Positions 10,472 to 20,079 of a stretch of DNA of 20,107 nt are shown here, piece by piece. The DNA is from a virus, in the IMG/VR virus record IMGVR_UViG_3300033571_002347, positions 1 through 20,107 of that record, one strand, 5' to 3'. How positions within the stretch are numbered: position 1 is the stretch's first letter; every line of letters starts with the position of its first letter. The notes under the pieces are model-generated. The model worked only from the letters and a program-made list of their open reading frames with translations. It was not told where the DNA came from and searched no databases. The position numbers were made by a program, and so were the translations under genes.

Positions 10472-10902
10472 AGCTAAGCCCAAACTTTACTTTAAAGGAG
10501 TTAACAGACAGTGAAATTGCAGAACGCAAAGGATTGGATAACACGCCAAGTGAAGAAGTTAAAGCAAATCTTGTTAGACTTGCTCGCTTCCTTGAAGAAG
10601 TAAGAAAATTATTAGGAAGACCTATTATAGTTAATTCTGCATATAGGTCTTTAGAAGTAAATAAAGCTGTAGGTGGTAAGCCTACGTCACAACATGTATT
10701 AGGATGCGCCGCAGATATTAGAGTGCCTGGCATGACACCTAATGACATAGTAAAAGAAATTTTAAAAAGCAACATTGAATATGACCAAGTGATCAGAGAG
10801 TTTGATTCTTGGGTGCATATTTCAATACCAAGAAATTTTGCAGATAAGCCAAGAAAAATGGCTTTAATTATTGATAAATCTGGAACGAGGAATTTTGTAT
10901 GA
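10468..10902 (+). CDS. Endolysin, peptidase M15 (zinc D-Ala-D-Ala carboxypeptidase-like)
   Basis: This 144-aa protein opens NFTLKELTDSEIA, as usual for the M15A-type endolysin fold. The core NSAYRSLEVNKAVGGKPTSQ precedes the zinc site: H76 (in SQH), D83 (in AADI) and H117 (in WVHIS), with E111 nearby as a probable catalytic acid. It would cleave peptide cross-links in host peptidoglycan. No signal peptide or separate cell-wall-binding domain is present, so it needs the upstream holin. The length is normal for single-domain phage M15 enzymes. Both ends are ATGA overlaps. Confidence 0.9.
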   Translation: MKLSPNFTLKELTDSEIAERKGLDNTPSEEVKANLVRLARFLEEVRKLLGRPIIVNSAYRSLEVNKAVGGKPTSQHVLGCAADIRVPGMTPNDIVKEILKSNIEYDQVIREFDSWVHISIPRNFADKPRKMALIIDKSGTRNFV

Positions 10903-11534
10903 CAGTCGCAGCAGTAATGACATATGACAGTTTAGTTGAAAACATTCAATCATACTTAGAGCGTACAGACACAGCTACATTAAGTAAGATACCTCTTTTC
11001 ATTATGTTAGCAGAGCAAGTCATTGCTTCTCAAATTAAGTTTTTAGGTAACTTAACAGTTGTTGAATCAAACATGACTGCTAGTAACCCTATCATCAATA
11101 AACCAGTTCGCTGGCACAAAACAGTTTCAATGAACGTTACAATCGATGGTGTTAAGCAGCCTGTATTGCTTCGCAAATATGAATACTTAAGAGAATATTG
11201 GCCAGATCAATCACAAACAGATGTACCTAAATTTTACTGTGATTACGATTACGAAAACTGGTTAGTAGCTCCTACACCAGCAGATAACTTTGATTTTGAA
11301 GTGTTGTATTACGAACGTGTACAGCCACTAGATTCATCCAATCAAACTAACTGGTTCACTCAATACGCACCACAAGCTTTGCTTTACGGTTCTTTATTAC
11401 AAGCTATGCCATTCCTTAAGAACGATGAGCGTACACCTATTTGGCAAGCACAATATCAAGCTATCATGCAAACACTTAAAGCTGAAGATGTTCAACGTAT
11501 CGGTGATCGTCAAGCCACTGTATTGGATACTTAA
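10899..11534 (+). CDS. Tail adaptor protein (SU10/P22 gp4-like)
   Basis: This 211-aa protein opens with MTYDSLVENIQSYLERTDTA (residues 7-26) and continues with IPLFIMLAEQ. It then has W-H-K-T-x-S-M-N, RKYEYLREYWPDQSQTD, a DYDYENWLVAPTPADNF strand, VLYYERVQPLD, NQTNWFTQYAP and AMPFLKNDER. These motifs fit the phage adaptor family that docks between portal and nozzle in SU10-like podoviruses (P22 gp4 and T7 gp11 are functional analogues). The order adaptor, fibre, nozzle supports this. The family call is from recalled motifs, not from a search. ATG at 10899 overlaps the endolysin stop; a second in-frame ATG at 10917 could be an alternative start. Confidence 0.8.
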   Translation: MTVAAVMTYDSLVENIQSYLERTDTATLSKIPLFIMLAEQVIASQIKFLGNLTVVESNMTASNPIINKPVRWHKTVSMNVTIDGVKQPVLLRKYEYLREYWPDQSQTDVPKFYCDYDYENWLVAPTPADNFDFEVLYYERVQPLDSSNQTNWFTQYAPQALLYGSLLQAMPFLKNDERTPIWQAQYQAIMQTLKAEDVQRIGDRQATVLDT

Positions 11535-12769
11535 TGCCATCATATATCTCACCGTTTACTGGAGACGTAATACAGGCAACTGATGTAAGCTACGCGGCTT
11601 ATACGCTTACAACAAATCTCCAACTTGACTGGCCTTCAAATACTATACCGCCAGAAAGTCCAGCTGCACGTATTATGGATATCACACCAGGTGCTGGCTA
11701 CTTAGCTATGCCGCCTGCAAATCAGGTATCAGTAGGTCAAGATGCATTAATTCGTAACTTAGGTGGATCATCATTTAACGTTAGAAACTACACTGGCGGA
11801 ACTATTGTTTCTGTTGCTGCAGGCAAATCAGTTTATATTTATGTCACAGACAACAGCACTACAACTGGCACTTGGGGAGTTATTGATTTTGGTGCGGGCA
11901 CATCAGGCGGAACTGCATCAGAACTTGCAGGCCTTGGTTTACTTGCCATATCAACTACACTTAATCAAGCACATCCAGTAGACACATTCCTTACTGGCTA
12001 TACATTTGTAGCAGCAGATCGCGCACAAAATAAATTGTGGACTGGTGGATCTGGTACAGTCAACTTACCTCTTGCATCTACTCTAGGCGACAATTGGTTT
12101 AGTATTTTAAAAAACAATGGCACTGGTACATTAACAATAAATGTAGCTTCACCAGATACCATTGACTTGCAAGTTAGCAAAACAGTTAACCCTGACGAGT
12201 CAGCATTCATTATGTGCGATGGCACACAATACTTTACTGTAGGCTACGGACAAAGCCCTAACTTCTTATTTACAGCACTTGTTAAATCAGTATCAACTGG
12301 CACCGTTGTTTTAACTACTCAAGAAGCTACATCTGTTATTCAAGAATATGTTGGCAATCTTACAGGTAACGTTACCGTTGTATACCCGCCTGTAGTAGCG
12401 TTTTATGTTATTAGTAATCAAACTACAGACAATGGTTTTTCTTTAACTATTACAACAGCAACTCCTGGTGGTGCTACAGTAGCTATTCCAGTAGGCCAAC
12501 AAGCAACAGTTATTACTGACGGTGTAAATTTTTATAACGCTAACACAGTGCAAGCTGGCGGATCAACATCTCAGCTTGTAGATGGAAGCCAAAGTGTTCC
12601 GTCATTAAGTTTTATTAACGAGCCATCAACTGGTATGTATAGACCAGGCGCAACTAATATTGGATTTACAGTGATTGGTAGTGAAGTGTTAAATATTGAC
12701 ACCAATGGCATTCAAGTCACTGGCACAGGAAATTTTGATGGTGGCATTTCAGGTGGAGACTTTAATTGA
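11534..12769 (+). CDS. Fibre-like tail protein beside the nozzle (411 aa)
   Basis: The N-terminal 120 residues (SPFTGDVIQATDVSYAAYTL, PAARIMDITPGAG, LAMPPANQVSVGQDALIRNL) match a domain widely found right after the adaptor gene in uncultured podovirus-like phages. The middle is Thr/Gly-rich beta structure (NKLWTGGSGTVNLP, SAFIMCDGTQYF). The C-terminal 70 residues (SLSFINEPSTGMYRPG, then a GFTVIGSEVLNIDTNG-type stretch) resemble fibre tip-proximal segments. The end is GGISGGDFN, nearly the same as the end of the large fibre. It may be a fibre or plug attached to the nozzle. It is coupled to both neighbours: the start overlaps by one base, and the stop overlaps the TTG start of the nozzle. Confidence 0.65.
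   Translation: MPSYISPFTGDVIQATDVSYAAYTLTTNLQLDWPSNTIPPESPAARIMDITPGAGYLAMPPANQVSVGQDALIRNLGGSSFNVRNYTGGTIVSVAAGKSVYIYVTDNSTTTGTWGVIDFGAGTSGGTASELAGLGLLAISTTLNQAHPVDTFLTGYTFVAADRAQNKLWTGGSGTVNLPLASTLGDNWFSILKNNGTGTLTINVASPDTIDLQVSKTVNPDESAFIMCDGTQYFTVGYGQSPNFLFTALVKSVSTGTVVLTTQEATSVIQEYVGNLTGNVTVVYPPVVAFYVISNQTTDNGFSLTITTATPGGATVAIPVGQQATVITDGVNFYNANTVQAGGSTSQLVDGSQSVPSLSFINEPSTGMYRPGATNIGFTVIGSEVLNIDTNGIQVTGTGNFDGGISGGDFN
12755..12768 (+). promoter_or_regulatory. Ribosome site GGAG and TTG start for the nozzle gene
   Basis: GGAG at 12755-12758 is seven bases before TTG at 12766-12768. The TTG shares bases with the stop TGA of the upstream gene, mirroring the ATGA overlaps elsewhere in the window. 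The next in-frame ATG is about 110 codons downstream, so TTG is the likely start. Confidence 0.65.
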
Positions 12770-14784
12770 CAAGAAAAGTTTTTGCACTTGATACCCAGCC
12801 TGGCATTCAAAGAGATGGTACGCTAACCGACAAAATTTATTATGAAGATGGTCGTTGGGTAAGATTTCAACGTGGTCGTCCAAGAAAAATTTTAGGCTTC
12901 CGTGAAATTACTGCATCTTTAGCAGGCCCTAGCCGCGGTATATTTCTTGATCCTAATGACGGATTTAATAACATTTTTAGTGGATACAATGATGGACTTC
13001 AAGTTGTAGCTATTAACGATGTTGGTATTGGCTCTGGGATATTAGATTTTACCTTAACTGGATTTACTCCAAACAATAATAATCTTTGGCAGATGGATTC
13101 AGAGTTTGATTCAGGCGGAACAAATCAACAAACACTAGTAGCACATCCTGGACAAAATTTAGCAAAAATTGATAACACAGTAGATACACGTGTATTAGGT
13201 GGTGATATTAACGGAACTTCCTTATCTCCTATTGGAGTATTTACAGCAGCTGGATCAACTAATACAACAACTACAATTACACTTGGCGCAATCAATCCTC
13301 TTGTAGGCCCTGGTCAGTTAGTCACTGACTCTGGAGGAAATATACCTCCTGGAACCACAGTCGTATCTGTAACAGGAACATCTGTTGTTATATCAGCCGC
13401 AGCCACAGGAACAACAGTAAGTAATACATTTACTTTTGATAACGAAATATCAGTATCAGGCGGTGTAGTAGTTTTACATCCCTATACATTTGTATACGGT
13501 AATAATGGCCTTATAAAAAATTGTGCTGCAGGAAATCTTGATGACTGGGTTTCAGCAGACGCCAACGAAACAAACGTATCAGCTACAAAAATAGTCAAGG
13601 GACTTCCTGTTCGAGGCGGTTCTAATGCTCCTTCAGGTCTCTTCTGGTCTCTTGACTCCCTTATTCGCGTATCTTATGCGCCTACTACAATTACAGCTGG
13701 TAACACTGCAACTACGTTCTTTTGGCGATACGATATCATATCATCTCAATCATCTATTCTCTCATCATCATCAGTGATCGAGTATGACGGTATTTACTAC
13801 TGGTGTGGCGTTGATAGATTCTTGCTATACAACGGTGTTGTAAAAGAAATTCCAAATACATTTAATCAAAACTATTTCTTTGATAACCTTAATTACGCAC
13901 AACGTCAAAAAGTTTATGCAACAAAAGTTTCTCGTTACGGAGAAATTTGGTGGTTCTATCCACGCGGCAACTCTACAGAATGCAATGACGTAATTATTTA
14001 TAACGTTCGTGAAAACGTTTGGTATGACGCTGGACAAGCTTTAGGTGCAAGACGATCAGCTGGTTACTTCTCTCAAGTTTTCCCTTACCCAATTAATGCG
14101 AGCTGGGAAATTAATGCAACTGGTGGTGTTAACGCATTTAATATTGTAGACGCTGGCTCTGGATATACAGACGGAGTTTACCCATACGAAGTGTTAGAAA
14201 ACAATGATGGAAACGTTACAGCAATTGCTACAATTACAGTAGCTGGTGGAATTGTAACTCAAGTAGTTATTACATCGCACGGTGTGGACTATTCAATTGG
14301 TGATATTTTAACTGCGCCTACGCTTCCTGGTGGAACTGACTTTGAAATTATAGTCACATCGCTGATGAGCTATGTATCTTTATTCCAACATGAAATTGGT
14401 ACAGATGCTATCTATACAGGCCCGTCAGGCGTTATTCAAACAGCCGTTCAAAGTTATTTTGAAACATCTAATTTGGGATGGGTATCAGGTGGGCCATCAC
14501 AACAATCTCCAGTGGGGGACAATTACTGGCTAAGACTAGAGCGTGTTGAGCCTGATTTTGTTATGACTGGCAATATGACTTTAACTGTAACAGGTAGACC
14601 ATTCGCCCAATCAGACGATCAAGCATCAAGCCCATATACGTTTAATCAAGACACATCAAAAATTGATATGCGTGAACAACGAAGAGAGCTAAGATTGAAG
14701 TTTGAAAGTAATGTACTTGGTGGTAACTATCAAACTGGTTACATCATGTTGAACGCAGATGTCGGTGACGTGAGACCTTACTAA
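12766..14784 (+). CDS. Tail nozzle / tail-tubular-B-like protein (672 aa)
   Basis: The opening (ALDTQPGIQRDGT, then YYEDGRWVRFQRGRPRKILGF) is the typical start of short-tail nozzle or packaged-DNA stabilisation proteins, functional counterparts of P22 gp10 and T7 gp12. Propeller-like strands follow, including SGLFWSLDSLIRVSY, SSVIEYDGIYYWCGVDRFLL and KVSRYGEIWWFYP. Two regions look inserted: about 160-225, which is Thr/Val-rich with PPGTTVVSVTGTSVVISAAA, and about 450-533, which has DAGSGYTDGVYPYEV and ATITVAGGIVTQVVITSHG. The end returns to family pattern (DNYWLRLERVEPDF, REQRRELRLKFESN, GGNYQTGYIMLNADVGD). The TTG start overlaps the previous stop. The protein would form the distal tail tube that gates DNA release. 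Confidence 0.75.
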   Translation: MTRKVFALDTQPGIQRDGTLTDKIYYEDGRWVRFQRGRPRKILGFREITASLAGPSRGIFLDPNDGFNNIFSGYNDGLQVVAINDVGIGSGILDFTLTGFTPNNNNLWQMDSEFDSGGTNQQTLVAHPGQNLAKIDNTVDTRVLGGDINGTSLSPIGVFTAAGSTNTTTTITLGAINPLVGPGQLVTDSGGNIPPGTTVVSVTGTSVVISAAATGTTVSNTFTFDNEISVSGGVVVLHPYTFVYGNNGLIKNCAAGNLDDWVSADANETNVSATKIVKGLPVRGGSNAPSGLFWSLDSLIRVSYAPTTITAGNTATTFFWRYDIISSQSSILSSSSVIEYDGIYYWCGVDRFLLYNGVVKEIPNTFNQNYFFDNLNYAQRQKVYATKVSRYGEIWWFYPRGNSTECNDVIIYNVRENVWYDAGQALGARRSAGYFSQVFPYPINASWEINATGGVNAFNIVDAGSGYTDGVYPYEVLENNDGNVTAIATITVAGGIVTQVVITSHGVDYSIGDILTAPTLPGGTDFEIIVTSLMSYVSLFQHEIGTDAIYTGPSGVIQTAVQSYFETSNLGWVSGGPSQQSPVGDNYWLRLERVEPDFVMTGNMTLTVTGRPFAQSDDQASSPYTFNQDTSKIDMREQRRELRLKFESNVLGGNYQTGYIMLNADVGDVRPY

Positions 14785-14785
14785 T

Positions 14786-15034
14786 ATGGCACTAGCAGTC
14801 ATATACGATCCAAGATTTCACACTTTTAATTCATGGGCGTGTCTTATGGTTGAAGCATATGGTGGTCAGCAATTAGCAATACCAGGCGATGAAGATGAGT
14901 GGAAAAATTGGGCGGTAGGGTTAAAAGCAATTGATATTTTTGCTAACGAGGGTATACCAGGCCCTTACATTTATGAAAACTGGCAAGACTGGGCTGAAGC
15001 TTTAGTTAATGCCGTAAACCAAAGGGTAGCATAA
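14786..15034 (+). CDS. Small conserved phage protein (82 aa), function unknown
   Basis: The start is one base after the nozzle stop and the stop overlaps the next ATG. The sequence is rich in Trp and acidic residues (FNSWACLMVEAYGGQQLAIP, DEDEWKNWAVGLKAIDIF, YENWQDWAEALVNAVNQRV), suggesting a compact three-helix fold. Proteins with this 'WA..L..I..F...G.P.P..Y..W..WA..L' rhythm occur after the nozzle in related uncultured phages, so a structural or tail-assembly role is plausible. No catalytic motif is seen. Confidence 0.75.
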   Translation: MALAVIYDPRFHTFNSWACLMVEAYGGQQLAIPGDEDEWKNWAVGLKAIDIFANEGIPGPYIYENWQDWAEALVNAVNQRVA

Positions 15035-15465
15035 TGGAAGAAAATCAAAAAAATTTAATAGAAGAAAACGAAGACGATAATTACGAAGAAATGTCTACAC
15101 AAGACATTGTGCGACAAAGCATAGAAAGAACTCAACCAGGCGTAGACTGGGAAGAGGTATACGCTTATATGTACCATGGATTACAATCCCCTAATTTTAG
15201 ATTATTACGTAGACGCAACTCTTTATTATTTTTTCAAGTGACACCCCCAGTTGCAAGAAATCTTCATCTATTTACTGTTGATGACCAAAAAGAATTAAAA
15301 ACTTCAATGCAAGAATTTTTTAAAGCATTAAAAATTGCTGGATATAAAAAAGGTGTTGGTGAAGTAGAAAATCCAACAGTTCTTAGACTTATGAGAATGG
15401 CTGGCATTAAACTTAAAGAGCAAAAAACAGCTGATGGATATCACTTTGAAGTGGAGATTAAATAA
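15034..15465 (+). CDS. Conserved phage protein (143 aa), possible acetyltransferase-like fold
   Basis: An acidic leader of about 25 residues (EENQKNLIEENEDD) precedes a domain with DWEEVYAYMYHGLQSPNFRL, a strand LLFFQVTPPVARNLHLFTVD, a helix LKTSMQEFFKALKIAGYKKG, then LRLMRMAGIKLKEQ and a final strand HFEVEIK. The alternation of strands and helices and the 'viewed parameter in, GYKK out' layout is reminiscent of GNAT-like small phage proteins, but the acetyl-CoA loop is not evident. I would therefore not call enzyme activity. AAAGG upstream and the TAATG overlap support the start; M20 is an alternative. Confidence 0.7.
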   Translation: MEENQKNLIEENEDDNYEEMSTQDIVRQSIERTQPGVDWEEVYAYMYHGLQSPNFRLLRRRNSLLFFQVTPPVARNLHLFTVDDQKELKTSMQEFFKALKIAGYKKGVGEVENPTVLRLMRMAGIKLKEQKTADGYHFEVEIK

Positions 15466-17747
15466 TGGGCGGCGTCGTTAAAGGTGTAGTAAACGTTGTA
15501 AAAAGCGTAGTAGGCGGTGTGGTTGATACCGTTAAAAACATTATTAAAAATCCTCTGCCAGCGATTGCATCATTTGCGCTTAGTTACTTTGCTCCTGGAA
15601 TAGGAACTGCATTAGCTGGTAAATTAGGTATAGCAAAAGATCTGGGAATTATGGCCGTTAGGTCTGTTGGTAGTGCTGCAATTACTGCGCTTAACGGTGG
15701 AAGCATGAAGAACATTCTTACTGCTGGATTAATGCCAGTTGTGATGTCTCCAGCTGTTCAAAAATCTGTATTTGGCGCTATCGGATTAAAAGATTTTAGC
15801 ATTACTGGTGAAGGCGGAATCCTTGCCGACAACCCTATAATAAATGGTATTGGCAATGTGCTTGGTAACGGAGAGATTGCTAACATTATTAAAAACGCCG
15901 CTGGTGCTGCAACCATTGGTGGAGCTATTGCATTAGTGACAGGCGATGATATTAAGCAAGCTGCATTAGGCGCTGGAGTAAACTCAGTTACAGGCAATAT
16001 ATTAGGTAAGATGTTTAATTCCATTAAGAGTGCTGTAACAACATCAGATAAGCTTGCAGCTGATTATAAGAATACGCAAACACAAGCCCAAGCATTACTA
16101 GACAAGAATCAAAACTTACAAAGAATTACTGCATTACAACAAGATCAATACACACAAGCTCAAGCAATTAATAAAGATATTGAAGCATTTAAAAAATTAG
16201 AAGCAACTATTAATTCTGGAACGTATACTCAAGCACAAGTAGATCAAGCAAATGCATTGGCCGATAAAATTAACAATGTAGCTTATCCGAAATATGAAAA
16301 GACTAGCAGCTTCATACAGCAAATGATTGATGCCAATAAGCAAGATTACAATCAGCTTAATACTTTAAGTTCGAACATGTCTGGTATATCTGATTCTTAT
16401 GAACAAATAATTTCAGACATTCAAGATCAATATACAGAATATGTTATTTCAGAAGAAGTTCCAAAATATCAAGAATTGTACACAGAACAAAAAGCTGCAC
16501 TACAATCTGGCGACCTTGCAAAAGCTACTTCATTACAAACACAGATGGATGAAATAAAGAGTTATATTCGAACATCAGATTATAACGGTACATTACCATC
16601 TAATATTTCTGGTCGTATCGATTTCGGTAGTAAACGCAAGCCGCTTGGTTTTCTTGGAGGTAGTGAAGCTAGCAGAATACAAGCTAAAATTGATCAACTT
16701 ACAGGGCAAGCGCCATCAACATCACCCAGAATATTAAAATTGTTTCCTAACCTTTCTAGACCTCAAGATCCAGCAAATCAGAAAGTAACACAGCTTACAA
16801 AAGACATAGAAAGACTACAAACAAGACTACAAACTGCTTTAGTTGATGGGGATATGAATACAGTAGCTTCAATTAAAAGCCAAATTATTGCAAAAAATAA
16901 TGAGTTGGAAGCAGCAATTCCAGAAGCTCAAAAATATAATACTGAGCAAGTTAAAATTTTACAAGCTCAATTAGACGCTGCACAAAATAAAGAATTAATG
17001 TCGGAAGTTCCTAAAACAGCTGTTTCTAACCCAAGTTTTATTGAAGCATTTTTAAAGACTGTTCCTGCAGATATATTAACTACAGCGCTTACATCAAGCA
17101 TTACTAATGCATTGCTAGGTAATGATTTAGACTCAGCTAGAAGAGCTGTTCGACAAGCTCAAAATCCACCTAGACCACCTAGACCACCTGTTACACCTCC
17201 TACAACTCCAGGAACAGGCGGAGGTACTACTACACCTCCAGGCGGCGGAACTACTGTAACTCCTCCTCCTACTAAGGTTGATGTAACAAAATTAACTCCA
17301 ATTAACTTTGACCCAAAAACTGGAACTACTACACCTATTACACCTACAACGCCTACAACACCAATAGTACCTACAACACCAACTACACCGCCTACAACCC
17401 CTACAACACCTACAACCCCAACTACGCCTGTTACACCGCCTACCACGCCAACAACGCCTACAACACCTTCTGGTGGACTACCCACAACTGGAGGAACTAC
17501 TGGCACTACAACTGGCGGATTAGGTTCAACAACAGCGCCTACAAAGGTTGATATTAGCACCTTGACACCTTACACTGGTTCAGTTAACTTTGGAACATCG
17601 GGGAATCAGCAGTCTGGATTAGGTTCTGTTTCTACACCAACAACCACTCCAACGAGCACAGGAAGCACTGCTCCGCAGAAAGTTGATATTAGTACATTAA
17701 CCCCAGTAACAAATCCAAACTTGTTACCGACTAGCTTAAGAACTTAG
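15465..17747 (+). CDS. Probable internal virion / ejection protein with Pro-Thr C-terminus (760 aa)
   Basis: Residues 1-30 are an amphipathic Gly/Val/Lys repeat (GGVVKGVVNVVKSVVGG). They are followed by hydrophobic, Ala/Gly-rich helices to about 190, which look membrane-active. Residues about 190-560 are mostly long coiled-coil helices rich in Q, K, E and D, with breaks near 380-430. The C-terminal 200 residues are disordered: PRPPRPP, a TTP/TPT tract (about 620-669), Gly/Thr linkers and three copies of KVD[VI][ST][KT]LTP at 604, 694 and 739. This layout fits ejection proteins packaged in short-tailed phages, but no transglycosylase or protease domain is visible. The stop is seven bases before the next ATG. 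Confidence 0.6.
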   Translation: MGGVVKGVVNVVKSVVGGVVDTVKNIIKNPLPAIASFALSYFAPGIGTALAGKLGIAKDLGIMAVRSVGSAAITALNGGSMKNILTAGLMPVVMSPAVQKSVFGAIGLKDFSITGEGGILADNPIINGIGNVLGNGEIANIIKNAAGAATIGGAIALVTGDDIKQAALGAGVNSVTGNILGKMFNSIKSAVTTSDKLAADYKNTQTQAQALLDKNQNLQRITALQQDQYTQAQAINKDIEAFKKLEATINSGTYTQAQVDQANALADKINNVAYPKYEKTSSFIQQMIDANKQDYNQLNTLSSNMSGISDSYEQIISDIQDQYTEYVISEEVPKYQELYTEQKAALQSGDLAKATSLQTQMDEIKSYIRTSDYNGTLPSNISGRIDFGSKRKPLGFLGGSEASRIQAKIDQLTGQAPSTSPRILKLFPNLSRPQDPANQKVTQLTKDIERLQTRLQTALVDGDMNTVASIKSQIIAKNNELEAAIPEAQKYNTEQVKILQAQLDAAQNKELMSEVPKTAVSNPSFIEAFLKTVPADILTTALTSSITNALLGNDLDSARRAVRQAQNPPRPPRPPVTPPTTPGTGGGTTTPPGGGTTVTPPPTKVDVTKLTPINFDPKTGTTTPITPTTPTTPIVPTTPTTPPTTPTTPTTPTTPVTPPTTPTTPTTPSGGLPTTGGTTGTTTGGLGSTTAPTKVDISTLTPYTGSVNFGTSGNQQSGLGSVSTPTTTPTSTGSTAPQKVDISTLTPVTNPNLLPTSLRT
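17274..17705 (+). repeat. Three KVD[VI][ST][KT]LTP motifs in the 760-aa protein
   Basis: Copies lie at 17274-17300 (KVDVTKLTP), 17544-17570 (KVDISTLTP) and 17679-17705 (KVDISTLTP). Each is preceded by a Thr/Pro linker (PPPT, APT, APQ). They are short conserved islands in otherwise low-complexity sequence, as expected of linear docking motifs. Confidence 0.8.
17325..17470 (+). repeat. Thr-Thr-Pro coding repeat tract
   Basis: Irregular 9-base units (ACN ACN CCN) encode about 50 residues of TTP and TPT with occasional I, V and extra P. The third codon bases vary from unit to unit. It is probably an extended linker in the 760-aa protein. Confidence 0.8.
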
Positions 17748-17754
17748 GATAAAT

Positions 17755-20079
17755 ATGGCAACGACTTTAACTACCCCATTAATGAGCCAACCAACTGGCG
17801 CTCCAATTACATCTCCAGGAAGCGGAACTGGTGCCATTCCTAATGTAAATTATCAAACTCAAACAACAGACAACACAGCCGCTGGAGCTTTATTGGGTGG
17901 ATTAGCTGGTTTAGCTTTAAGTAAAGCATTTAGAGCTCCTGCTGGCGGAAATAGACAACAAGGCCCTAGACCTGTAGATACTCCTAACGTTGCTGGAATT
18001 GCACCTAAAAAGCCAACTCAAGGAGGGACAGTTAGTGTTGCAACTCCGTCAGGAACTCCTGTTGGCGGTGGCGCAAGTGGAGCAGTTGGCGGTCTAGCAT
18101 TTCCTAAAGGAACAACGCAAGCACAAGTTGACGCATATTATGGCAAATCAAACGGTCAATCTAATTACGTCGTTTCAGGCGTAAATTCATCTAATGGTGA
18201 TGTGATTGCCCAACCTAATACAAATATTGGCGGCGGCAATTTAACTGGTACTGGCGCAGGCCCTTCAGAAACATTAACACCTCCTTCAGATCAAACAGCT
18301 GGAAGTTATTTCCAAGACCCTTATGGAAACATTTATGATGGTGATGGTAATCTTTACGCGGTCAAAAGCGGTGGTACTTACTTTGTAAAAGATTCTTCAT
18401 CTTCTGATTCATGGATCAACGCAAACAACCCACAACAAGTTATTACAACTGACGAGCTATATAGTGTTACTGGCGGCGGTTTTGAATCTCCAGATATATC
18501 AATTCCAGATATTGATGTTGGCGGTAGTGATTGGGATTACTCAAACAATGATCTTTACTACCCAACAGATCCATATGAAAACTGGACACCTCCTGATGAC
18601 AATAGCTATTACACACCTCCAACAGATGATACAAACTATTATCCTGATTTTGGTGGCTACCAACCAGGTACGTCTGATGATTACACAGGCGGCGGATGGG
18701 ATCCATCATCCTTCTTTAAAAAAGGCGGATTAGCAACTCCATTGTATAAAAAAGGTGGTTCAGTTAAAGGCTACGCAGATGGCGGAATAACAACAACATC
18801 TGTATTGGATACAGTTGGCAATCTTGTAACAAACCCTTTAGTTCTTGGTGCAGGCGCTGGCGCTCTATTAGGTAACTTATCAGGCGGAAGCACTAATCAA
18901 GTTAACCAAGGTATTGACATGTCTGAGCTTGGTTTAAACCCAAGAACAACAACGTTTGGTATGGGCCCTGCAAATTTTGTGCCTTACGAAGAATATAGTC
19001 AGCCATATGCATTAACTACATCTCCAATAGGTGGATTAGGTAGCGCAACATATCAGCCTACAATACCTAATTTACCAGCAATGAGCACAACTGGTGGAAC
19101 AACAACTCCAACAACAACTGGTGGCATGACAACTGAACAGTTGACTGCATTAATTAATTCTATCTTAAATCAAAATACTACTGGCGGTGGCACAACTACT
19201 GGTGGAGGAACTACCACAGGAGGTGGTACGACTACTGGTGGAGGCACCACAACAGGAGGTGGCGCCACAACTGGTGGAGGTACAACTACAGGTGGTGGAA
19301 CGACCACTGGAGGTGGAACAACAACACCGCAATACTATACAGACGGACAAGGTAATATCTACGATGCTAACGGAAACTTAGTTCAAGCAGCAACTACCAC
19401 TGGAGGAACCACTACGGGTGGCACTACTACGGGTGGTACAACAACTGGCGGAACAACAACTCCACAGTATTATCAAGATGCTAACGGAAACATTTATGAC
19501 GCTAATGGAAATTTAGTTAGAGCTGTAAATACTGGAGGTGACGATGACGATGACGATGATGATCGTAGTCGTGAGCGTGAACGTGATCGCAAAAAAAAAT
19601 TAGAGCGCGAAAATAGAAGAAACAGAGTAAGAAATGCATCATACACTTATGGATCTAGAGTAAACCCATCAGAAGTGTTGGGCTCATCAAGCCCTCTTAA
19701 TTCGTTTTTAGGAAGGTTTGGTAGAAGAAGATCTACAGGTACAGGAATGGCCCAAGGCGGATTAGCACATGATATGCATCCTGATAACATTGTAGACCAT
19801 GTACCTATTATGGATGGCCGACATGATTACAGAGCTGGAGCTCGAGTAGAAGGTGCTGGTGATGGTCAGTCAGATGATATTCCAGCAATGCTTGCAGACG
19901 GTGAATACGTGATTGATGCTGAAACAGTAGCGCAATTAGGTAACGGATCTAATAAAGCTGGTGCTAAAGTGCTAGATGAATTTAGAGAAAATATTCGCGC
20001 ACATAAACGCAGCGCACCACTACATAAAATACCGCCAAAGAGTAAATCTCCATTGGCTTATCTCAAAGGAGCTAAATAA
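17755..20079 (+). CDS. Large modular virion protein with GGGTTT, GNIYD and GEYVI domains (774 aa)
   Basis: An AGGA site lies five bases before the ATG. A hydrophobic helix occupies residues 42-59 and another Ala/Gly/Leu one about 360-378. A KKGGLATPLYKKGGSVKGYA motif lies near 322-342. Three copies of a YGNIYD..GNL-type motif begin near 185, 527 and 572. Eight GGGTTT units and four GGTTT units separate the later copies. An Asp8 run (596-603) is followed by an Arg/Lys/Glu-rich block to about 625. The C-terminal 70 residues (DDIPAMLADGEYVIDAETVA, LGNGSNKAGAKVL) form a domain common in phage structural and internal proteins. I infer a structural or ejected role and see no enzyme motif. The stop overlaps the next ATG. 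Confidence 0.6.
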   Translation: MATTLTTPLMSQPTGAPITSPGSGTGAIPNVNYQTQTTDNTAAGALLGGLAGLALSKAFRAPAGGNRQQGPRPVDTPNVAGIAPKKPTQGGTVSVATPSGTPVGGGASGAVGGLAFPKGTTQAQVDAYYGKSNGQSNYVVSGVNSSNGDVIAQPNTNIGGGNLTGTGAGPSETLTPPSDQTAGSYFQDPYGNIYDGDGNLYAVKSGGTYFVKDSSSSDSWINANNPQQVITTDELYSVTGGGFESPDISIPDIDVGGSDWDYSNNDLYYPTDPYENWTPPDDNSYYTPPTDDTNYYPDFGGYQPGTSDDYTGGGWDPSSFFKKGGLATPLYKKGGSVKGYADGGITTTSVLDTVGNLVTNPLVLGAGAGALLGNLSGGSTNQVNQGIDMSELGLNPRTTTFGMGPANFVPYEEYSQPYALTTSPIGGLGSATYQPTIPNLPAMSTTGGTTTPTTTGGMTTEQLTALINSILNQNTTGGGTTTGGGTTTGGGTTTGGGTTTGGGATTGGGTTTGGGTTTGGGTTTPQYYTDGQGNIYDANGNLVQAATTTGGTTTGGTTTGGTTTGGTTTPQYYQDANGNIYDANGNLVRAVNTGGDDDDDDDDRSRERERDRKKKLERENRRNRVRNASYTYGSRVNPSEVLGSSSPLNSFLGRFGRRRSTGTGMAQGGLAHDMHPDNIVDHVPIMDGRHDYRAGARVEGAGDGQSDDIPAMLADGEYVIDAETVAQLGNGSNKAGAKVLDEFRENIRAHKRSAPLHKIPPKSKSPLAYLKGAK
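19183..19326 (+). repeat. Eight 18-base GGGTTT coding repeats
   Basis: Eight contiguous six-codon units encode GGGTTT (unit five is GGGATT). All eight differ in nucleotide sequence, and neighbouring units differ at most third positions. The tract is probably a flexible linker. Confidence 0.9.
19402..19461 (+). repeat. Four 15-base GGTTT coding repeats
   Basis: Four contiguous five-codon units encode GGTTT between the second and third GNIYD motifs. They are shorter relatives of the GGGTTT array just upstream. Confidence 0.85.

Follow-up and report, generated by a model that had tools for sequence, protein, structure and literature searches.

This locus raises the question of why a nine-residue motif is kept three times in the disordered tail of a phage protein, and what it might bind. 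The window, that is, the whole stretch of DNA analyzed, is a 20,107-base virus record. It encodes P0001, whose tail carries the motif KVD[VI][ST]xLTP, and, directly downstream, the 774-aa protein P0002. The initial annotation had proposed that such islands bind a partner, with the portal, the nozzle and P0002 as candidates. The genes upstream and the segments of P0001 are listed below.

10899..11534, + strand: SU10-type adaptor, P0008 (PF24175, E 6.8e-21; PDB adaptors)
12766..14784, + strand: nozzle-like tail protein, P0005 (PDB 8zkk nozzle gp16, E 1e-6; phrog_3287)
14786..15034, + strand: 82-aa protein between nozzle and cassette, without a named family
15034..15465, + strand: 143-aa protein immediately before P0001, without a family match above threshold
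15465..17747, + strand: P0001, 760-aa motif-bearing protein, putative ejection or internal virion protein (ORF, translation, cassette context)
15465..15989, + strand: N-terminal conserved segment of P0001, residues 1-175, VKNIIKNPLPAI type (matched in the single-gene relatives L129 and L130)
15999..17003, + strand: predicted long-helix region of P0001, residues 179-513 (AlphaFold2 model, overall mean pLDDT 46)
17160..17744, + strand: disordered P/T/G-rich tail of P0001, residues 566-760 (composition, AlphaFold2)
17274..17300, + strand: motif copy 1, KVDVTKLTP, residues 604-612 (pattern match)
17544..17570, + strand: motif copy 2, KVDISTLTP, residues 694-702 (pattern match)
17679..17705, + strand: motif copy 3 (terminal), KVDISTLTP, residues 739-747, followed by VTNPNLLPTSLRT and the stop codon (pattern match)

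The motif copies and the gene context of P0001

Pattern matching returned the three copies of KVD[VI][ST]xLTP, spaced by 90 and 45 residues, exactly as the initial annotation had given them. Its description of the tail as disordered and of low complexity was also borne out: residues 566–760 contain 67 Thr, 42 Pro and 22 Gly, TPTTPTTP repeats are abundant, and most of the tail has a pLDDT below 50 in an AlphaFold2 model of P0001 built from 16 sequences (mean pLDDT 46). The placement of this tail in the virion is suggested by the gene context. Shuffling whole P0001 produced at least one full match to the motif in 1 of 20,000 shuffles, and shuffling the tail produced one in 0 of 20,000. In amino acids, copies 2 and 3 are the same; in nucleotides they differ at six positions, all synonymous, in six of the nine codons. 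They are therefore no fresh DNA duplication but old copies maintained at the protein level. A chance match was ruled out by the shuffles, by these synonymous codon differences and by the profile scan described below. The motif extends beyond nine residues: terminal copies mostly run on as VT[DN]xxxLxx[LI] toward the C terminus, and internal copies mostly as [YFV]TG.

AlphaFold2 predicted a three-residue helical turn alike in every copy (residues 607–609, 697–699 and 742–744); confidence is a little higher near copies 1 and 3. A model of P0001 and P0002 read through as a single chain (8 sequences, mean pLDDT 41) placed a short helix downstream of the terminal copy and showed neither a strand nor docking at the motif. 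Both models are of poor quality, and neither points to a partner. A PDB profile search of the P0001 family gave weak matches only (best E 0.005), named mostly as coiled-coil proteins.

The function of P0001 was approached through its neighbors. In Escherichia phage SU10, gp20–gp24 count as ejection proteins because they are lost when the genome is released, gp20 being the transglycosylase, and these proteins are unresolved in the virion cryo-EM, according to excerpts of PMC9509320. Sequence relatives of SU10 gp20, gp22 and the nozzle gp17 were found among the loci studied here. The gene after P0002 in relatives is gp22-like (SU10 gp22 versus the L079 protein, E 7e-6), and this direct neighbor matched the DNA ejection protein family phrog_4287 weakly (E 0.0023). 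An SLT domain was found in 6 of 12 searched records, including the motif carriers G001 and G004, where it lies just downstream of the cassette; for the window, the transglycosylase gene falls beyond the end, and the complete cassette is seen in relatives. As this nozzle-to-transglycosylase cassette is related to the SU10 ejection genes, P0001 is probably an ejection protein, and the same gene context makes P0002 probably another. P0001 had no PHROG or NCBIfam match and reached Pfam DUF7760 below threshold only; none of the PHROG, NCBIfam, Pfam and tblastn searches linked it to a known ejection protein. Neither P0001 nor P0002 had an SU10 match among the best 30 rows listed. Since ejection proteins diverge strongly (excerpts of PMC8954989), the missing match lowers only the claim that P0001 belongs to the ejection proteins.

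Several further features of the region were recorded. The end of the 143-aa protein (15034–15465) appeared GNAT-like in fold by eye. Some relatives have extra genes after the nozzle and before the P0001 homologue. They encode an acyl-carrier-like protein in which a DSL site is present (L081; TIGR00517, weak, E 0.0016), a beta-ketoacyl-ACP synthase (L006; TIGR03150, E 4.6e-27, and PF02801, E 4.1e-15) and a protein of about 147 aa with no named family. Loci with the acyl-carrier/synthase insert include L006 (3935–5780), L081 (10224–12065), L107 (11252–13072) and L093, among others; lipid modification of an ejection protein is a guess. L107, from a spring metagenome, also encodes at 14997–16235 a phage protein with a run of CCSCCCSCCC-type cysteine repeats.

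Recurrence and conservation of the motif

Relatives were retrieved in three ways: (a) with the nozzle as query, giving 80 loci; (b) with a degenerate DNA pattern for VD[VIM]xxLTP[VIM]T[DN] in viral contigs and prokaryote genomes; and (c) with a family alignment using N-domain patterns only, the motif being unused, giving 31 loci. The DNA pattern found 16 loci in viral contigs, 15 of them in the P0001 gene family and one (L098) outside it. In 84,980 bacterial and archaeal genomes it found seven loci, six in frame and unrelated and one (L104) without a displayed frame. None of the seven was seen in a relative, and the idea that the motif is a general bacterial word was rejected. The motif-free N-domain retrieval brought in four carriers new to the set (L113, L117, L120 and L124), together with non-carriers: L128, L132 and L133, which are 314–315-aa P0001 homologues without tail or motif, and the single-gene loci L129 and L130.

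A profile built from 32 motif instances was then scanned over 7,104 reading frames (1,000,200 residues). Matches above 10 bits in the phage loci fell exclusively in the P0001 family, and reversed sequences never exceeded 8 bits. Between 8 and 10 bits, five distinct forward words were found, one in the P0001 homologue of L022 and four in other frames, where they appear chance-like. That L022 homologue closes with another short repeat, ALTPVPKPTGMLTPVTKPTGILTPV, perhaps a decayed motif tail or a parallel version of it. Searches of 50,697 phage records by tblastn gave no match with P0001, with the C-terminal 24 residues of a carrier or with the L113 homologue, and the literal words VDVSTLTP, VDISTLTP and VDVSKLTP were absent from the literature searched.

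Across the 26 distinct proteins collected, with a pattern that permitted 17–39 residues, the terminal copy invariably starts 22–27 residues before the C terminus; further upstream, these proteins have zero to two matched copies at spacings of 16–91. In a 16-sequence alignment, between-clade identity was 0.75 for the last copy, without gaps, compared with 0.56 for copy 1, 0.49 for copy 2, 0.42 for the N domain and 0.22 for the coiled body. Among close relatives, pN/pS was 0.18 for motif codons, 0.24 for the remaining alignable tail and 0.47 for the body, so that the motif stands out little from the rest of the tail at short range. One close relative, L003, has partially lost the motif, its last copy having decayed to RADINTLTP.

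Taken together, the AlphaFold2 model, the 26 proteins and the between-clade identity reveal a conserved island within disorder, the hallmark used here for a short linear docking motif. Its constant distance from the protein end, kept even in distant relatives, makes the motif a probable docking or packaging tag. Recurrence, C-terminal position and conservation thus support the earlier proposal that the islands bind a partner, and leave the choice among its candidate partners to be weighed below.

Gene arrangement and the downstream protein

Motif carriers are always the upstream half of a two-gene arrangement, and relatives with a single gene at this position are without the motif. L129 and L130 make this visible within one chain, which matches the N domain of P0001 (E 1e-5 and 2e-5) and has the P0002 T region at its end. 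For the remaining single-gene relatives, gene position and the T region decided the class. A script classed 121 loci, duplicate contigs included, as 39 two-gene with the motif, 6 two-gene without it, 24 single-gene (L018 wrongly among them), 2 unclear and 50 unclassified. Read by frame, L018 has a P0001 homologue preceding the gene with the T region; it is a two-gene locus without the motif and entered the 47-row count below as such, and L019 keeps the single-gene class given by the script. Two-gene relatives without the motif include L018, L022, L043, L045, L063 and L066, which shows that splitting does not require the motif. The presence of the motif in homologues, on which its earlier reading hinged, is the rule among two-gene homologues; it fails in single-gene relatives and in some two-gene loci, and is eroded in L003.

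Mapped onto a nozzle tree with 51 rows, the motif requires five changes, at least three of them forced by supported branches, compared with a mean of 17.2 for shuffled data. L006 has a nozzle whose best segment is 73% identical to that of the window, yet it has a single gene and no motif, so motif presence tracks the cassette and not the nozzle.

The features of P0002 are as follows.

17755..20079, + strand: P0002, 774-aa downstream protein, lower half of the two-gene arrangement
18304..18354, + strand: G module 1, YFQDPYGNIYDGDGNL
18910..18951, + strand: loosely motif-like conserved site, GIDMSELGLNPRTT
19330..19380, + strand: G module 2, YYTDGQGNIYDANGNL
19465..19515, + strand: G module 3, YYQDANGNIYDANGNL
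19870..20076, + strand: C-terminal T region, SDDIPAMLADGEYV / SDDIPAMLADGEYVIDAETVAQLGNGS ... KSPLAYL (common to single-gene relatives)

Of 19 carriers examined, 13 were read as having both genes in one frame, with a TAA stop and the next ATG within 12 bases. Alignment of eight carriers through the stop showed that the second protein starts with MAL[PS]Q...[VI]D[PQ]xxLN[LI][ST]G. The core of this boundary unit, VDPSTL, is also the core of internal motif copies such as KVDPSTLTPYTG; the N-terminal VDPxxLNLSG unit is missing from P0002 of the window, L002 and L003. P0002 has a second site of this loose kind, [VI]D[ML][ST]x[LIV]...PRTT, present in 15 of the 44 proteins with a T region and in four proteins outside this class. 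Words of the form [VI]D[VIPML][ST]x[LIV] were observed 27 times in T-region proteins, with 1.2 expected from shuffles, and 24 times in other proteins, with 15.6 expected. The T region itself has a weak match to tape-measure families known from long-tailed phages (phrog_6090, E 3.3e-6). Because VDPxxLNLSG starts the downstream protein in many carriers, the motif array seems to cross the gene boundary. Judging from these sequences, an array across the boundary with a fission inside it, or a fusion in the single-gene relatives, seems to be the simplest picture.

The G modules of P0002 share the consensus YYxDxxGNIYDAxGNLV. With G-module calls assigned by hand, the 47 rows comprised 20 with both motif and G modules, one (L014) with the motif only, none with G modules only and 26 with neither; for the two-gene rows alone, the corresponding numbers were 20, 1, 0 and 6. 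Rows dropped before the 47 were the 50 unclassified loci of the 121, short or duplicate nozzles (51 left), and L059, L078, L092 and L124, in which P0002 was incomplete or the class uncertain. L124 and L123 (the contig of L092) show a G-like module in the alignment and would add to the cell with both. The tree leaves three to four independent contrasts, two of them concordant, which is too few for a test of the motif against the G modules. In L014, L018, L022, L043, L045 and L063, a G-like module ends the gp22-like protein instead.

Candidate partners and known systems

We put at roughly even odds (about 0.5) that the motif is an array of docking or targeting peptides joining the split halves of an ejection protein to a shared partner. 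The phages concerned are uncultured, short-tailed and SU10-like, and one to three such short peptides would sit in the disordered C-terminal tail of their probable ejection protein. The main site would be the last copy at the C terminus, VD[VI]SxLTPVT[DN]xxxLxx[LI], and the internal copies may add avidity. In related phages the probable ejection protein is a single chain; here, the array would tie its upstream half to a partner presumably common to the downstream half, which in many cases starts with VDPxxLNLSG. Both halves would thereby be placed together, perhaps while the ejection complex assembles in the head. A terminal docking or targeting peptide would explain the fixed end position, the flexible linker and the optional extra copies. 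For the partner, we favor one shared by both halves over P0002 or the shell or scaffold, and these over the portal or nozzle.

The proposal that P0002 itself is the partner, with the tail docking directly on it, perhaps on its G modules, and clasping both halves, we regard as doubtful. The motif and G modules do occur together in 20 of the 47 rows, with G modules never alone and the motif alone once, but the tree holds few independent contrasts; the read-through model, which contained both motif and G modules, showed no pairing, at low confidence; and L018 and L022, which lack the motif, carry a G-like module in their gp22-like protein. Moreover, P0002 bears a motif-like unit at its start in many relatives, which makes a shared third partner at least as fitting. 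We consider it rather unlikely that the motif is a capsid- or scaffold-targeting tag loading P0001 into the procapsid, like T4 or encapsulin tags. An extreme C-terminal site after a flexible linker, with extra copies, in a probable internal protein, would suit such a tag, and T4 IPIII enters the head via its first 10 residues alone (excerpts of PMC9026906). The encapsulin peptides LTVGSLRR and GGSENTGGDLGIRKL (excerpts of PMC11190991) also loosely resemble the C termini LPTSLRT and LKSLGIA, but this resemblance was judged by eye and spans few residues; besides, the T4 tag is N-terminal and single-gene relatives manage without the motif.

Anchoring on the portal or tail channel appears improbable. 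The nozzle and adaptor genes lie just upstream and T7 gp7.3 on its nozzle offers a precedent (excerpts of PMC11784390), but motif presence does not track the nozzle, and L006, with its close nozzle and no motif, makes the nozzle named in the initial annotation a less likely partner. A functionless expansion of low-complexity repeats is disfavored and very improbable: the abundance of TPTTPTTP, the variable copy number and spacing, and a constraint in close relatives only slightly above that of the remaining tail would fit it, but not the fixed C-terminal position, the 75% between-clade identity without gaps or the purely synonymous differences between copies 2 and 3. Least probable is a recognition site for a head-maturation protease. 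The T4 head protease processes internal proteins (excerpts of PMC9026906) and repeated short words could conceivably serve as cleavage sites, but the sequence bears no sign of cleavage.

A bolder reading, which we regard as a long shot, is a phage-side cargo-loading code, in which one VDxSxL address word, repeated and present on both halves across the gene boundary, would bind the interior of the HK97-fold shell or the scaffold. If true, such a code would let an ejection protein split into two genes with co-packaging kept. The loading and arrangement of ejection proteins in short-tailed phages are poorly known, and a conserved tag of about 22 residues, gained and lost among related cassettes, offers a small testable handle on loading. 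If it is a loading tag, the motif tail could also serve to carry other proteins into these heads.

Docking and targeting peptides of virions are known as a kind; this motif and its association with a split ejection protein were not found described in the literature searched. The cassette resembles that of SU10 (Kuravirus) in its position downstream of nozzle and tip genes and in its relatives of gp20, gp22 and gp17, but none of SU10 gp17–gp24, which were compared, has the VDxSxL pattern or the T region. In T7, the C-terminal loop of the small ejected protein gp7.3 is anchored on the nozzle tail ring (excerpts of PMC11784390); there the partner is known, and the likeness to P0001 is one of C-terminal position. 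The capsid targeting sequence of T4 is likewise a short terminal peptide that brings internal proteins into the head, but is N-terminal, cleaved and of other sequence in the account excerpted from PMC9026906. Encapsulin cargo-loading peptides, short and terminal as well, direct proteins into an HK97-fold shell (excerpts of PMC11190991). A few C-terminal residues are loosely alike, and coat binding by P0001 is hypothetical; if it were true, the VDxSxL code would be a viral counterpart of these encapsulin cargo peptides.
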